This document shows positions 1,263-52,161 of a stretch of 64,000 bases of DNA, one piece after another. Made by a program: the position numbers and the translations under genes. Source of the DNA: Actinomycetales bacterium Actino_02 (GTDB lineage: Bacteria > Actinomycetota > Actinomycetes > Propionibacteriales > Propionibacteriaceae); assembly GCA_001603275.1 (NCBI GenBank), contig LUYM01000006.1:248001-312000 (forward strand), read 5' to 3'. The notes beneath the pieces were generated by a model that saw nothing but the letters and a program-made list of their open reading frames with translations, searched no databases and was not told the DNA's origin. Numbering within the stretch: position 1 is the stretch's first letter; each line of letters begins with the position of its first letter.

Positions 1263-2734
1263 GTCGGGTTGTCGTGGTCGGGGCTGGCCTGGCCGGGCTG
1301 GCCGCCGCCGCCCAGCTGGTTGGTGACGGCCATCAGGTGATCATCGCCGAGCGGGCCGACGAACCGGGCGGACGCTCCGGCACGCTGGCCGATGCCGGCT
1401 TCACTTTTGACGCCGGGCCGACCGTCTTCACGATGCCGCACCTGCTGGAGCGCGCCTTCGCCCGGCTCGGGCAGAAGATGGACGATCACGTGCACTTGAA
1501 GCGGCTGGATCCGGCCTACCGCGCCCAGTACGCCGACGGTTCGCAGATCCTGGTCCGGGCCGATCGGGACGATCAGCTGGAGGAGTTGCGGCGATCGGTC
1601 TCCGACCGTGATGCGGAGGCTTTCGTGGGCTTCGCCGACTGGGTCGAGAAGCTCTACGACGTCGAGATGCCGCACTTCATCGAGCGGAACTTCGATTCGG
1701 TCCTCGACCTGGTCAACCGTCCGATCGCCGCCGCGAAGCTGGTCGCCCTGGGTGGCTTCGGACGGCTCGGACGTGCCGTCGGCCGCCGGTTCTCCGACGA
1801 GCGACTGAGCCGGCTGTTCAGTTTCCAGGCGATGTATGCCGGGCTGGCGCCGTCCGACGCGCTGGCGATCTATGCGGTGATCACCTACATGGATTCGATC
1901 GCCGGGGTCTACTTCCCCGAGGGCGGCATGCATGCCGTGCCGCGAGCCCTTGCCGGTGCGCTGGCCGATGCCGGCGCCGAGGTGGCTTACTCCAGCCCGG
2001 TCACCGAGATCCTGCGCGACGGACGCGGCCGGGTGGCCGGCGTCCGGGCCGGCGGAGAGCTGATCGCCGCCGACGCCGTGGTGGTGACCACCGATCTGCC
2101 GACCGCCTATACCGAGCTGCTGCCCGACCTGGCCCCGCCGTCGGTGCTGCGCCGGGCCCGCTACTCGCCCTCGGCCGTGGTCTGGCATGTCGGGGTCCGC
2201 GGGCTGCCCAAGCCGGGGCTGGCCCACCACAACATCCACTTCGGCGCGGCCTGGGACGAGTCGTTCACTCAGCTGATCGACCGCAAAGAGCTGATGGCCG
2301 ACCCGTCCCGGCTGGTGACGATCCCCAGCCTGGACGCACCGTCGATGGCCCCTGACGGACACAGCGTGCTGTACGTGCTGGAGCCGGTGCCGCACCTGGG
2401 CGGACGGGTGAACTGGGGCCGCGAACGCGGCCCGATCCGGGAGCGGCTGCACGCCTTCCTGGCCGCCAACGGCTACCCCGACGACATCGTCACCGAGCGT
2501 CTGGTCACCCCGGACGACTGGAAGGCCCAGGGCCTGGCGATGGGGACTCCGTTCAGCCTGGCGCACAGCTTCTTCCAGACCGGGCCGTTCCGTCCGGCCA
2601 ATCGGGAACCGCGGGTGCCGGGGCTGTTCTTCGCCGGCAGCGGCACCACGCCCGGGGTCGGCGTGCCGATGGTGCTGATCAGCGGTGAGCTGGCCGCCAG
2701 CCGCGTCCGCGACTATCTGGGGGCTGCGCGATGA
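1259..2734 (+). CDS. crtI: phytoene desaturase
   Basis: A 491-aa FAD-dependent desaturase of the CrtI family, converting phytoene to lycopene. The N-terminal dinucleotide-binding motif VVVGAGLAGLAAA starts at residue 4 and is followed by the acidic residue and PGGRSGT typical of amine-oxidase-like flavoproteins. The C-terminal signature GLFFAGSGTTPGVGVPMVLI is a close match to bacterial CrtI proteins. It overlaps crtE upstream and crtB downstream by 4 nt each, as expected for a tightly coupled operon. It probably acts at the inner membrane face. No anomaly is seen. Confidence 0.95.
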   Translation: MSRVVVVGAGLAGLAAAAQLVGDGHQVIIAERADEPGGRSGTLADAGFTFDAGPTVFTMPHLLERAFARLGQKMDDHVHLKRLDPAYRAQYADGSQILVRADRDDQLEELRRSVSDRDAEAFVGFADWVEKLYDVEMPHFIERNFDSVLDLVNRPIAAAKLVALGGFGRLGRAVGRRFSDERLSRLFSFQAMYAGLAPSDALAIYAVITYMDSIAGVYFPEGGMHAVPRALAGALADAGAEVAYSSPVTEILRDGRGRVAGVRAGGELIAADAVVVTTDLPTAYTELLPDLAPPSVLRRARYSPSAVVWHVGVRGLPKPGLAHHNIHFGAAWDESFTQLIDRKELMADPSRLVTIPSLDAPSMAPDGHSVLYVLEPVPHLGGRVNWGRERGPIRERLHAFLAANGYPDDIVTERLVTPDDWKAQGLAMGTPFSLAHSFFQTGPFRPANREPRVPGLFFAGSGTTPGVGVPMVLISGELAASRVRDYLGAAR

Positions 2735-8875: not shown

Positions 8876-9105
8876 GGGCAGGTCAGGCTCACGGACCGGT
8901 GTCCGGGCTCAGGGCCCGAGCGCGATTGGCGAGCTGTGCGCGGGGTGGGCAGTGGCGTTCGAGCGACGCATCCTTTGAGACCCGCAATTGGCACCCACTG
9001 CACTCGACATAGGGACCCGGCTGTGGTCAGTCCGAGAACGGCACTACCCCACCCCGCTGGGGTGGAGGGCGTGTGAGTTCACAAGGGTGCCGTGTTCGTC
9101 GGGCT

Positions 9106-30875: not shown

Positions 30876-30942
30876 CTGGACGGTTCTTTTGCCGTCCATC
30901 GAAGTCAGCTGGTTCGGTGGGGACGGTTCCATTACCGTCCAA
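30876..30942. repeat. palindrome doublet, 43-bp period
   Basis: Cores lie at 30878-30897 (loop TTCTTTTG) and 30921-30940 (loop TTCCATTA), same orientation, starts 43 bp apart. They lie directly upstream of the beta-CASP gene start. Confidence 0.88.
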
Positions 30943-31054
30943 CTCTCGTGATCTCTCGAGGGTGGCCTTCCCGGAGCGCTCAGCTCGTCGGTGGCTAGCA
31001 AGCGCTCCGCTGTGGGGACGGTGCGAGGGCCGCCCATCAATGCGGCTGGCAAGG

Positions 31055-31121
31055 GTGGACGGTATTGGAACCGTCCCCGGCAGTTGGGCTGGCAAGGGTG
31101 GACGGTAATGGAACCGTCCCC
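31055..31121. repeat. palindrome doublet, 43-bp period, opposite orientation
   Basis: Cores lie at 31057-31076 (loop TATTGGAA) and 31100-31119 (loop TAATGGAA), with the reverse orientation to the doublet at 30878. Starts are 43 bp apart. The two doublets thus face each other in one 290-bp gap, which otherwise holds no gene. Confidence 0.88.
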
Positions 31122-31126
31122 GAGGG

Positions 31127-49017: not shown

Positions 49018-49827
49018 TCAGCCCAGCGATCCGATTCGGAACTGCCTGAGTTGATCGGCCGGTTCGGCCTGACCCTGGTGCTGGGCGTTGAAGGCGGCGG
49101 TGGCGTCGGTCCCGCAGATGGCCAGGATGCGCTGCGGCCCGCCCGGGTGGGCGTTGATCCACTCGGTCAGGTCGTAGACCGAGCCATTGATGATAACCCA
49201 GCAGGATTTTGCGTCGCGATGGGTGGCCACATCACTGGCCAGGTAGAGCGCCTCGGCGACGCTGGTGGTCGCTGGGCCGGCCGGAGTGGAGGGGCCGGTG
49301 GCCGGTGCAGAGGTCGTCGGCGAGGTGGCCGCGGTGGCACTCGGGGCCGTCACTGCGGTGCCGGACCAGACTGCGGTGGCGCCGCTATGCCCGACCAGGA
49401 TCGTCAACGCCACGGTGACCAGGGCCACGGCGGCGGTGAGCAGGGCGCCGCCGATGGTGGCGGCGGAGCGTCCGCGCTTGGCCCGCCGGTCGGCGCGATG
49501 AAGCAGATACCAGACAACGGCCACCACCCAGAGTCCGGCGGCGACCCAGGGCAGCAGCGAACCCCAAGTGGCGTGCTCGGCCGGACGTCCGAGCTTGGCG
49601 GCCAAGTCCTCTCCGGACTCCTTGGCCACGAAAGCTGCGGCGACTCCGACGGCCAGTACCAGCAGGGTCAGCACGGCGAACCGGTCGGCGAGCTTGCCGA
49701 ACAGCACCAGCAACAGCAACCCAAGTGCTGCCACCGGAACCAGCACGACGGCGAAGTGGACGACCAGCGGATGCAGCGGAAGTCCGCCGAGGAACGAGGA
49801 GAGGTCCATGCCGAAAAAGTAGTCCAT
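49018..49827 (-). CDS. DUF2231 membrane protein fused to a cytochrome b5-like haem domain
   Basis: A 269-aa protein. Residues ~10-165 form four to five membrane helices beginning with LPLHPLVVHFAVVLVPVAAL, the histidine-containing signature of DUF2231. A Ser/Thr/Ala-rich linker follows (about 165-200). The C-terminal ~70 residues are a cytochrome b5-type fold with WINAHPGGPQRIL (first haem His) and a second His in FNAQHQGQ. This suggests a membrane electron carrier. The convergent rhomboid-like gene ends 16 bp away. Confidence 0.82.
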   Translation of the reverse strand: MDYFFGMDLSSFLGGLPLHPLVVHFAVVLVPVAALGLLLLVLFGKLADRFAVLTLLVLAVGVAAAFVAKESGEDLAAKLGRPAEHATWGSLLPWVAAGLWVVAVVWYLLHRADRRAKRGRSAATIGGALLTAAVALVTVALTILVGHSGATAVWSGTAVTAPSATAATSPTTSAPATGPSTPAGPATTSVAEALYLASDVATHRDAKSCWVIINGSVYDLTEWINAHPGGPQRILAICGTDATAAFNAQHQGQAEPADQLRQFRIGSLG

Positions 49828-49876
49828 GCGTCACAGATCGGCAGCGATTCCTCGGTGCGAGCCTCTACCCACCTGG

Positions 49877-50619
49877 GGACGGTTCCATTTCCGTCCGCCC
49901 TGGCCAGCGGGTTTGGTGGCCCGGGTGTTGTCGCCGGGTCGGGGAGACCATTCTCGAACAGGGTGGTCGGGTTCGGTGGTCGGGTGCGGTCGGGTGAGAC
50001 TCGGGCTTCCCTTTAGGTTCTTCGAACGGTCTCCCCGACCCGACTCCCTTGTTCGTCAACCGGCTCCAGCCGGGCGGGCTTGATGGGGACGGTTCCATTT
50101 CCGTCCGGCCTGGCCAGCGGGTTTGGTGGCCCGGGTGTTGTTGCCGGGTCGGGGAGACCGTTCTCGAACATGGTGGCTGGGTTCGGTGGTTGGGTGCTGC
50201 TGGGTGGGGTTCGGGTCTTCCTTCAGGTTCTTCGAACGATCTCCCCGATCCGGCTCTGGCTTGATGGGGACGTGGCTTGATGGGGACGGTTCCTTTTCCG
50301 TCCGGCCTGGTCAGCGGGTTTGGTGGCCCGGGTGTTGTTGCCGGGTCGGGGAGACCGTTCTCGAACATGGTGGCTGGGTTCGGTGGTTGGGTGCTGCTGG
50401 GTGGGGTGCGGGTTTTCCTTTACGTTCTTCGAACGGTCTCCCCGATCCGGCTCTCTTGTTCGTCAGACTGCCTTGAGCTGGGTGGGGTATTCGGTAGCCC
50501 GGGTGTTGTCGCCGGGTCGGGGAGACCATTCTCGAACAGGGTGGTTGAGTTCGGTGGTCGGGTGCTGCTGGGTGGGGTGCGGGTCTTCCTTGAGGTTCTT
50601 CGAACGGTCTCCCCGTCCC
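49877..50619. repeat. array of four composite units: palindrome plus long hairpin with 70-nt G-rich loop
   Basis: Hairpin arms (18 bp; left GGGTCGGGGAGACC[A/G]TTC) lie at 49936-49953/50024-50041, 50146-50163/50234-50251, 50343-50360/50431-50448 and 50514-50531/50602-50619. Each loop is exactly 70 nt. The first three hairpins follow a palindrome (cores 49877, 50087, 50284), whose start is always 59 bp before the left arm; the fourth has lost it. Loops contain GGGTGCTGCTGGGTGGGG followed by a further GGG in units 2-4. Unit starts are 210, 197 and 171 bp apart. No known family is recognised. Confidence 0.85.
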
Positions 50620-50660
50620 GGCTCCCGTGTACGCCGAGGCCCCCGACTGGGTGGGGTCCT

Positions 50661-50692
50661 GGGACGTAACAAGAACCGTCCCCTTGTGTCCC
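50661..50692. repeat. GGGAC...GTCCC hairpin repeat, copy 2
   Basis: GGGAC-gta-ACAAG-N9-CTTGT-GTCCC has a perfect 5+5-bp stem with a 3-nt bulge. It lies after the stop of the flavoprotein gene, the same placement as the copy at 9106-9137 after another minus-strand gene. Confidence 0.72.
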
Positions 50693-50724: not shown

Positions 50725-52161
50725 TCAGCGGCGCTGGCACCAACCGGCGGCGTGCTCGGCGGCCAAGAGCCCGGACGTCAGCGCGAAGCCGGCAGGGGCC
50801 CCGCCGATGGTGGTGGTTGCGGCCTTGCCCCAGGCTCCGGCCGCGTCGTTGCCGGCCGCGTACAGCCCGCCGATCGGGTTGCCGAAATGATCCAGGACGC
50901 GCAGGAACTCATCGACCTCGATCGCCCCGGTGGTGCACAGGGCCACCGGCTCCATCCGGATCGCATAGAACGGCGGATGCAGGAGTGGCTCAAGATTCTG
51001 AGTCTTGAAGAAGCGGCGGTCCATGCCTTCCGCGCACGCGTCGTGATACTGGCTGACCTCGTCGATGAAGGACGAAACGTCCACGCCGATCAGGCCGGCC
51101 AGCTCCTCCAGGCTGTCAGCTCGGAAGGCAGTCTCGCCTTGGTCCAGATCCTCTTGAAGCTGTTCACGCAACTTGGTCAGCTTGGTGCCGGGCAGCACCG
51201 CGGACCCCATCCCACGCCGGGCGCCGGAGTGGGTCAGCTTGTCGATCTGGCGCTGGTCGAAGATGGACCAGGCGTAGCCCTGGCCGAGCCGCGCCACAAT
51301 GTCGCCCACCCGATACAGGGCCAGAGCCATCGCCTCGTTGCAGAAGCGGCGCCCCGACTGGTCGACCCACAGGGTGGGCTGGACGGCAGTGCAGCTCACG
51401 TGGTCGGTGAGCGGACGTCCGTTGGTGGTGGCGGCCACCAGCACGGCTCCGATCAGGCTGGACGCGTGGCCGCCGGCCGTCGTGGCCAGGGTCAGTCCGT
51501 CCCCGGTGTCCGAGCCGATCCCGGCGCTTGCGACCGAGAAGAGCCCGGCGTAGCGCCGCAGCAGCTGCGGGTTCGACGCATAGCCACCGGTGGCGATCAG
51601 CGCGGCCGCGGGTTGGATGAATAGCTCGGCTCCCCCGTCGTTTCTGGCCCGGACAGCGCTGATCGCACCAGCAGCCACCTCCAACTCCTCGGCGCGATAG
51701 CCGCGGTAGATCCGTACGCCGAGCCGCTCCAGTTCGGCGCTCAGCGCCTCGACCACTGCACGCATCCGTCCAACCGGCAGGTGCGAAGTCGCAAGTTGAT
51801 GCACGGGATCGATGGCGATCACCTTGTCGTAGTGGACGCCGAGGGCGAGCAGCCGATCCACGACCTCGGAGCTGCGCTCGACGAATCTGCTCAGCAAAGA
51901 CGGACTCGCCTTCCAGTCCGACATCTCCAGCAGAGCCTGGTATCCGGCGTCTTTGGTCAGCGGGACTCGGCGGGCCCGCTGCTCGGCCGATTCGAAGGCC
52001 GCGTGCCCGGCTGCCTGGGCCACATTGCCGCCGAGTTCGTCGCGCCGGTCCACCACGATGACGTCGAGTCCACGTCGCGCCGCTTCGAGTGCGGCCATCA
52101 GTCCCGCGGCGCCGCCACCGATTACGGCGAGCTGGCACCGTAGCGTCTCGCGCTCGGCCAC
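50725..52161 (-). CDS. FAD-dependent oxidoreductase (fumarate reductase/ketosteroid dehydrogenase-like)
   Basis: A 478-aa flavoprotein of the FAD_binding_2 class. The FAD site is CQLAVIGGGAAGLMAALEAARRG at the N-terminus; ALIATGGYASNPQLLRRY, GDGLTLATTAGGHAS and a C-terminal GLYAAGNDAAGAWG are typical of fumarate reductase/flavocytochrome c relatives. GTG 52161, preceded by GGGAG, is preferred to the longer frame whose first 57 residues look non-coding. The substrate is unknown. It is followed on the same strand by repeats and preceded by a two-component system reading the same way. Confidence 0.82.
   Translation of the reverse strand: MAERETLRCQLAVIGGGAAGLMAALEAARRGLDVIVVDRRDELGGNVAQAAGHAAFESAEQRARRVPLTKDAGYQALLEMSDWKASPSLLSRFVERSSEVVDRLLALGVHYDKVIAIDPVHQLATSHLPVGRMRAVVEALSAELERLGVRIYRGYRAEELEVAAGAISAVRARNDGGAELFIQPAAALIATGGYASNPQLLRRYAGLFSVASAGIGSDTGDGLTLATTAGGHASSLIGAVLVAATTNGRPLTDHVSCTAVQPTLWVDQSGRRFCNEAMALALYRVGDIVARLGQGYAWSIFDQRQIDKLTHSGARRGMGSAVLPGTKLTKLREQLQEDLDQGETAFRADSLEELAGLIGVDVSSFIDEVSQYHDACAEGMDRRFFKTQNLEPLLHPPFYAIRMEPVALCTTGAIEVDEFLRVLDHFGNPIGGLYAAGNDAAGAWGKAATTTIGGAPAGFALTSGLLAAEHAAGWCQRR

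Follow-up and report, generated by a model that had tools for sequence, protein, structure and literature searches.

Results

A four-unit array of long hairpins

The question raised by this locus is what kind of element a tandem array of four long hairpins represents, and which part of it is under constraint. The array occupies positions 49875-50683 of the window (the whole 64,000-nucleotide stretch of DNA analyzed here), with all four hairpins on the + strand, between a gene for a cytochrome-b5-like membrane protein that starts at 49827 (-) and a gene for an FAD-dependent oxidoreductase that ends at 50725 (-). Remeasurement of the array agrees with a preliminary description of this DNA, which had reported four units with 18-bp inverted arms, 70-nt loops and unequal spacing. 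The left arms begin at 49936, 50146, 50343 and 50514, giving start-to-start distances of 210, 197 and 171, and each unit runs from GGGGAGACC to GGTCTCCCC (in unit 2, GATCTCCCC) over 96 nt, with 70 nt between the 18-bp arms. The palindrome described earlier as preceding three units, GGACGGTTCC(A/T)TTTCCGTCC, is found at 49877, 50087 and 50284, exactly 59 nt ahead of the left arms of units 1-3; unit 4 lacks it. The arms of the window units extend to 21 bp, followed by a 4-bp inner helix (Table 1). The 64-kb window contains no tRNA and no Rfam family (Rfam 15) at gathering score. It does contain one divergent hairpin of the same long hairpin (LH) family, flanked by three of the palindromes, hereafter REPs, on one side and by one on the other.

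Table 1. Coordinates of the hairpins and palindromes discussed in the text. Positions refer to the window unless a locus is named; R1 and R3 are covariance models.
Feature	Position	Strand	Remarks
Long hairpin unit 1	49933..50044	+	arms 49933-49953 / 50024-50044; inner helix 49956-49959 / 50017-50020; 136 bits with R1
Long hairpin unit 2	50143..50254	+	136.8 bits with R1
Long hairpin unit 3	50340..50451	+	139.1 bits with R1
Long hairpin unit 4	50511..50622	+	137.3 bits with R1; without preceding REP
REP palindrome ahead of unit 1	49875..49896	+	GGGGACGGTTCC..CCGTCC
REP palindrome ahead of unit 2	50085..50106	+	
REP palindrome ahead of unit 3	50282..50303	+	
REP in reverse sense, at the end of the array after unit 4	50661..50683	-	GGGACGTAACAAGAACCGTCCCC
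Divergent LH-family hairpin	8936..9059	-	45.1 bits, E 3.7e-6 with R3
Palindromes flanking the Y1 gene of L010	L010 1302-1338 / 2265-2301		
Palindromes flanking the Y1 gene of L113	L113 1048-1084 / 1972-2002		

The hairpin belongs to a dispersed family

A BLAST search of the array region against its own genome (G000) returned 86 matches, among which, besides the self-match, ten long ones are further hairpins; the remainder include many of ~25-65 nt, mostly on the REP. Other places in G000 match the array at E values of 4e-188 (BLAST) and 1e-21 (covariance model). A search of the genome and its relatives by covariance model, proposed in the preliminary description, uncovered further copies in G000, in G015 and in four other genomes of the family. 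Briefly, model R1, trained on 18 own-genome units including the window's four, locates 12 G000 sites with 24 hairpins in all and, among 59 relatives, finds matches in two (G015 and G012). Model R2, built from 40 copies and run over 30 genomes of the genus, finds 24 copies in G000, 15 in G015 (at eight sites) and one in G012, after removal of antistrand echoes (1 of 16 matches in G015 and 2 of 26 in G000); over 198 genomes of the family it adds single hits in G108 and G158. Model R3, built from 23 diverse copies and run over 391 genomes of the order, places LH in six, all of one family; apart from G000 and G015 these are G012 and G108 (two copies each), G158 (three) and G157 (one). R3 also supplies the thirteenth G000 site, namely the divergent hairpin of the window. 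Since these genome searches used a fast first look, with 9-150 candidates per genome scored, absences from them are weak evidence.

The distant copies differ from those of the window in their stems. In five of them (one from G012, two each from G108 and G158) the stems span 26-33 bp, with at most one mismatch in four copies and four mismatches in the fifth. The two G108 copies have part of the outer arm in common, and the G157 copy resembles the first G158 copy; within G158 the outer arms differ, and an inner GAAAC/GTTTC and the 3' end of the loop are common. By eye, the loop ends 3' in TAGG or TACG in all seven distant copies, mostly as CAAGGGATA(G/C)G or (C)ATCTTAGG, and the 5' motif GTGGYCGG is clear in only three of the seven. 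In G108, G158 and G012, two LH copies lie close together in opposite orientation. Pattern scans of genome-contig and viral-contig collections, which may lack records close to the window's own genome, gave seven stretches and one stretch, respectively, that by eye are not LH and yield no R2 score at E <= 1, and blastn against phages and plasmids gave no match to LH.

Several other repeats were seen at these loci. Adjoining the G012 hairpin pair, two GTTTCACGTGAAAC sites (L075 7692 and 7823), which we take to be parS-like, lie beside a ParA-like gene. Short-loop hairpins with a common TTCCGGTCAAACGC form another repeated hairpin in the genus (L075 16449-16524 in G012; L087 2120-2187 in G018). 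Finally, L013 5034-5160, 10910-11050 and 11243-11473 belong to further repeat families, whose many short matches are spread over the whole G015 chromosome and are not confined to its origin half.

Covariation supports one long stem

The LH element is a hairpin of ~110-125 nt. Over 40 copies its stem comprises 25 bp in two helices (21 + 4 bp) with a 2-by-3 internal loop between them that all 40 aligned copies retain, and the loop within the inner helix measures 47-61 nt, mostly 56-61 (57 in 16 copies), with conserved ends. The fixed 70-nt loop of the preliminary description thus holds for the array and fails as a rule for the family, since the arm-to-arm span is 86 and 95, not 96, in two other G000 units.

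The arms were examined for covariation, as had been proposed, in a MAFFT alignment (A4) that was not fitted to structure; it took 40 of 56 matches, the others being the divergent copy of the window and 15 antistrand echoes, in which the same palindromes were matched again. In the stem, 92.0% of 1000 cells are paired, and compensatory change of both sides occurs in 16 of the 25 pairs, in 95 cells. None of 500 shuffles scored as high on any of five measures, and sliding one side of the stem by 1-3 columns left at most 54.8% of cells paired and at most 14 cells changed on both sides. Unguided, RNAalifold predicted 17 pairs belonging to this stem, and 12 of these show double changes. The long-range GAAC/GTTC pairing between the arms shows 12 cells changed on both sides and 99.4% pairing. 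The small local GTTC-N2/3-GAAC hairpins noted earlier within each arm appear incidental, with one double-changed cell in the 40 copies and 85.9% pairing vs 85.7% in shuffles.

Thus the letters of the outer stem differ widely among copies and the arms stay complementary through compensatory change, which argues that the folded single strand is what is kept. The loop is marked by GTGGYCGGGT near its 5' end in many copies and by ..CAAGGGATAGG or ..CTTAGG at its 3' end. One unit, L015 5146-5262 (-) (the same unit as L007), is chimeric, with a left arm of the GGATGGACC type and a right arm of the GGTCTCCCC type, and sits between one unit of each pure stem type.

Hairpins persist at orthologous spacers while their flanks diverge

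Four intergenic spacers carry hairpins in both G000 and G015: one between pdxT-like and terC-like genes, one between mshA-like and MFS genes, one upstream of a marC-like gene and one beside a Dyp-peroxidase-like gene (gene names read from translations). Eight unit pairs from these spacers, and hence four independent cases, have hairpins that are 71-91% identical. Their 100-nt flanks are only 40-56% identical in 14 of 16 comparisons (shuffles 49-55%), the other two reaching 71 and 82%. Because the hairpins are alike over diverged flanks and their stems covary, constraint acts on the hairpin and not on the unit as a whole, which is what the preliminary description had suggested from the inner geometry of the array. 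Conservation at orthologous spacers also suggests long residence rather than frequent movement. At 14 other pdxT-like loci of the genus the best R3 score is at most 14.4 bits, vs 102.7-122.2 bits for the five G000/G015 hairpins there; this absence is taken from the R3 search, the hairpin finder having missed three G000 hairpins in L076.

Other sites differ between the two genomes. Four G000 sites (the window array, L002, L013a and L013b) have no hairpin in G015. Of the corresponding G015 spacers, two hold just a REP, one has nearly closed up and one has neither element. The reverse case is a G015 hairpin (L052) whose counterpart in G000 holds several REPs (window 30886-31123). At these differing sites the G000 and G015 spacers are too diverged to fix exact element ends or a target-site duplication.

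The preceding palindrome is a REP that flanks a Y1 transposase gene

The palindrome 59 nt ahead of the hairpin has the properties of a REP: it is short, present in high copy and flanks a Y1 transposase gene. There are 300 copies of its core, GGGGACGGTTCC, in G000 and 74 in G015, vs 0 and 1 for the reversed control. The same REP flanks a Y1_Tnp (IS200-like) gene in G000 (L009 1075-1863, -) and in G015 (G015:C1:2707373-2707699). Two further Y1 genes, in L010 (G000) and L113 (G012), are flanked by palindromes (Table 1) that share the core AAAGGGGACAGTCCCCTTT and differ in their outer arms, each being self-complementary; this free-stem, fixed-core pattern is also that of the long hairpins. The short palindromes beside the L009 and L010 genes contain GGGGACGG and GGGGACAG.

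No LH lies within ~1.5 kb of any of five Y1_Tnp genes (two in G000, two in G012 and one in G015). The best model matches near them reach 16.4 and 10.2 bits (E 0.05 and 0.92), and the repeats flanking four of the five are palindromes other than LH. Y1_Tnp is present in the LH carriers G000, G015 and G012; none was found in the carriers G108 or G158, the latter assembly being 90% complete in 610 contigs.

An expanded lineage behind the REP and its orientation to replication

One LH lineage in G000 comprises 16 copies at six sites (the window, L002, L003, L013a, L013b and L014) and includes a 181-nt repeat. The lineage was defined by site, two REP-less copies included, and some of the "other" G000 copies (L011 and one L015 unit) have its arm type. 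From REP start to hairpin match the distance is 55-57 nt in 11 of the 16 copies, 60 in one and 76 in two (inside L003); no REP precedes window unit 4 or the first copy of L013a. Reverse-REP matches inside L014 are the hairpin's own right arm, not REPs. Between-site identity averages 84.6% in this lineage (105 pairs), 67.0% among other G000 copies (25 pairs) and 65.6% in G015 (94 pairs). Four of the six sites have no hairpin in G015, two of them holding a lone REP there; the other two sites were not placed. The G015 array L055 has a unit of its own, in which three of the four copies have a REP start 40 nt ahead of the hairpin. At the other seven G015 sites no REP lies within 300 nt; with a REP at only one site in eight, LH evidently exists without it. 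The pattern looks like hairpins spreading once located behind a REP.

Sampled GC skew (20 stretches) brackets the G015 origin at 2.946-3.097 Mb and points to a terminus at about 1.2-1.3 Mb. At nine of nine placeable sites (six in G015 and three in G000 by synteny) the hairpin strand follows the direction of fork movement, a count in which L055 enters by three of its four copies, the fourth being opposite, and from which sites at 2.998, 3.068 and 3.098 Mb, in or at the edge of the bracket, and the unplaced G000 loci L003, L011, L014 and L048 are left out. Seven of the eight G015 sites fall within 0.44 Mb of the limits of the origin bracket and the eighth is 0.74-0.89 Mb from them. Of the 74 REP cores, 72 fall, together with all eight LH sites, in an origin-containing half of 1.64 Mb whose limits were chosen post hoc. 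These counts of fork orientation and origin proximity lend the mobility account described below support that is suggestive only.

Discussion

The preliminary description had offered a structured RNA, a recombination target or a non-autonomous mobile element as possible identities of the array. The last of these fits best, with RNA retained as a rival. Specifically, we favor, tentatively and at somewhat less than even confidence, the reading that the array consists of dispersed LH copies and that the REP-LH unit moves as single-stranded DNA through a Y1 protein acting in trans, as a REPIN-like non-autonomous element. A Y1 transposase (IS200-like, RAYT/TIRYT-like) flanked by the same REP would act on the unit, probably on the lagging-strand template, with LH occupying the place of a REPIN's second REP; tandem growth within arrays could then proceed by ordinary replication slippage or recombination. 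According to PMC8266576 and PMC6006769, Y1 proteins of this kind cut and join REPs in vitro as single strands, and related transposases prefer the lagging-strand template. Against this account stand the five Y1 genes without LH, the carriers G108 and G158 in which no Y1_Tnp was found, the seven G015 sites with no REP nearby, the 5 of 16 lineage copies without a REP at the usual distance, and the long residence suggested by the orthologous spacers.

REPINs offer the closest comparison. As described by Bertels and Rainey (2011; PMC3116915), they are, like LH, intergenic, dispersed and clustered, and form hairpins with compensatory changes; their inverted arms enclose a spacer, with inter-REP spacings of 71 and 110 bp in SBW25, similar to those of LH; and their movement in trans by a Y1 protein has been proposed. 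LH has this architecture of two inverted arms and a spacer folding into one covarying hairpin. In contrast, the same study (PMC3116915) identifies the conserved 16-mers of REPINs with the REP that lies next to the transposase gene and describes a less conserved spacer. In LH it is the loop ends that show conservation and the outer arms that vary. LH was accordingly rejected as a REPIN proper: its arms are not the REP that flanks the Y1 gene, none of the five Y1 genes having LH within the distance searched, and its outer arms are not strongly conserved, with most stem pairs changed on both sides. In two carriers, G108 and G158, no Y1 gene was found, though one may have been lost there. Judged from its sequence, LH would work like a REPIN without being one.

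Two other systems invite comparison. The BIMEs of E. coli are described in PMC6006769 and PMC8266576 as mosaics of REPs with other segments, much like the REP-spacer-LH arrays here, in which the spacer is usually constant in length and of which two (window and L002) end in a REP of opposite orientation; relative to BIMEs as described there, the second motif is here a 110-nt hairpin family that is also found alone. The motifs GGGGACGG and GGGGACAG at L009 and L010 are close to and within, respectively, the consensus GGGG[AT][CG]A[CG] that PMC6006769 gives for TIRYT (Y1 subclass 2.1). The same work detected no REP-like repeats close to genes of this subclass, and the Actinobacteridae in its sample are reported to carry only another Y1 subclass; the GGGGACGG repeat, by comparison, has 300 dispersed copies here. 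The likeness lies in the flanking motifs and bears on the REP and its Y1 gene; it does not extend to LH. In the open-licence literature, to the extent that its text was available, we recognized no described element as LH.

LH may instead form a separate class of mobile hairpin, in which the loop is recognized, the stem can be nearly any pairing sequence, the enzyme is not yet known, and the element is older than and independent of the REP/Y1 system that it exploits here. We consider such a class somewhat unlikely, though a credible contender.

A functional RNA is possible and is the main rival to mobility. LH would then be a structured RNA with a cellular role (a terminator, a 3'-end stabilizer or a small RNA) that multiplies solely by tandem duplication and by hitching with the REP. 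Strong covariation, conserved loop ends and the retention of LH at orthologous spacers across diverged flanks are what such a role would leave behind. The letters after the stem are vaguely terminator-like as well, with a pyrimidine at +4 in 14 of 14 non-redundant copies and at +1 to +3 in 12, 10 and 11 of the 14. Wobble gains can in principle tell which strand is selected as RNA, and the preliminary description had left the strand unsettled; so it stays, because on a tree of the 40 copies G.U gains (20) balance A.C gains, which are G.U on the other strand (21), leaving no sign of one strand selected over the whole stem. Within the inner stem alone the gains number 10 for G.U and 3 for A.C, a subdivision made post hoc. 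The genomic setting argues against the RNA reading: by a simple ORF picker, LH sits in all three kinds of spacer between ordinary genes (convergent, co-directional and divergent), and the window units are antisense to both neighboring genes. A terminator role for all copies conflicts with the divergent spacers and is possible for some copies. Presence is also patchy, in 6 of 391 genomes of the order by the fast first look. No Rfam family reaches its gathering threshold in the window, and a lax search there gave sub-threshold hits only, of microRNA type on the hairpins and of c4-a1b1 on the REP and spacer ahead of units 1-3 (E 0.15-0.87, 15-17 bits vs a threshold of 46.7).

The quadruplex pattern previously read from the loops fits units 2-4 of the window and not unit 1 when spacers of 1-7 are allowed. 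Across the family it fits 24 of the 40 aligned copies, vs a mean of 6.3 in dinucleotide shuffles, the copies being related and not independent. Two G158 loops have at most two GGG runs, so that capacity for a quadruplex is common in the family without being a feature of it. A functional RNA is unlikely in our estimation and still to be weighed first against the mobile reading.

The likeness of the arms could also have a purely mechanical origin, with replication template switching (quasi-palindrome correction), not selection, keeping them alike and LH itself inert. Such correction is expected to produce long stems that contain few mismatches and whose sequence varies among distant members, and one unit with chimeric arms (L015 5146-5262) is in keeping with it. 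Template switching alone would not protect the asymmetric 2-by-3 loop kept throughout the alignment, or a loop 3' end recognizable between genera, and mismatches persist uncorrected, as does A.C at column pair 21-105 in 20 of the 40 copies. We regard this explanation as improbable.

A classical MITE, whose terminal inverted repeats are recognized as double-stranded DNA by a DDE transposase, would likewise be small, intergenic and multi-copy with inverted ends. Conserved terminal inverted repeats were sought and not seen: the outer ends of LH differ between lineages yet stay complementary, and no flanking letters are clearly conserved beyond the weak pyrimidine tail, all of which makes a MITE very improbable. 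Finally, a local, neutral tandem duplication, which the tandem layout might suggest and which the preliminary description had reserved for the case of no other copies, no transcript and arms drifting without compensation, is for practical purposes eliminated by copies at 11 further G000 sites and in five other genomes, with compensatory change in their stems.

REP-type repeats are usually recognized by conserved sequence. LH, in contrast, is kept by its fold, with variable stems and a more conserved loop, and so offers a natural way to ask whether selection on bacterial repeats takes single-stranded structure as its unit. Older conserved copies can be set against a recent burst behind the REP, in two close species with and without that burst, a contrast that makes mobilization in trans by a Y1 enzyme testable between close species.
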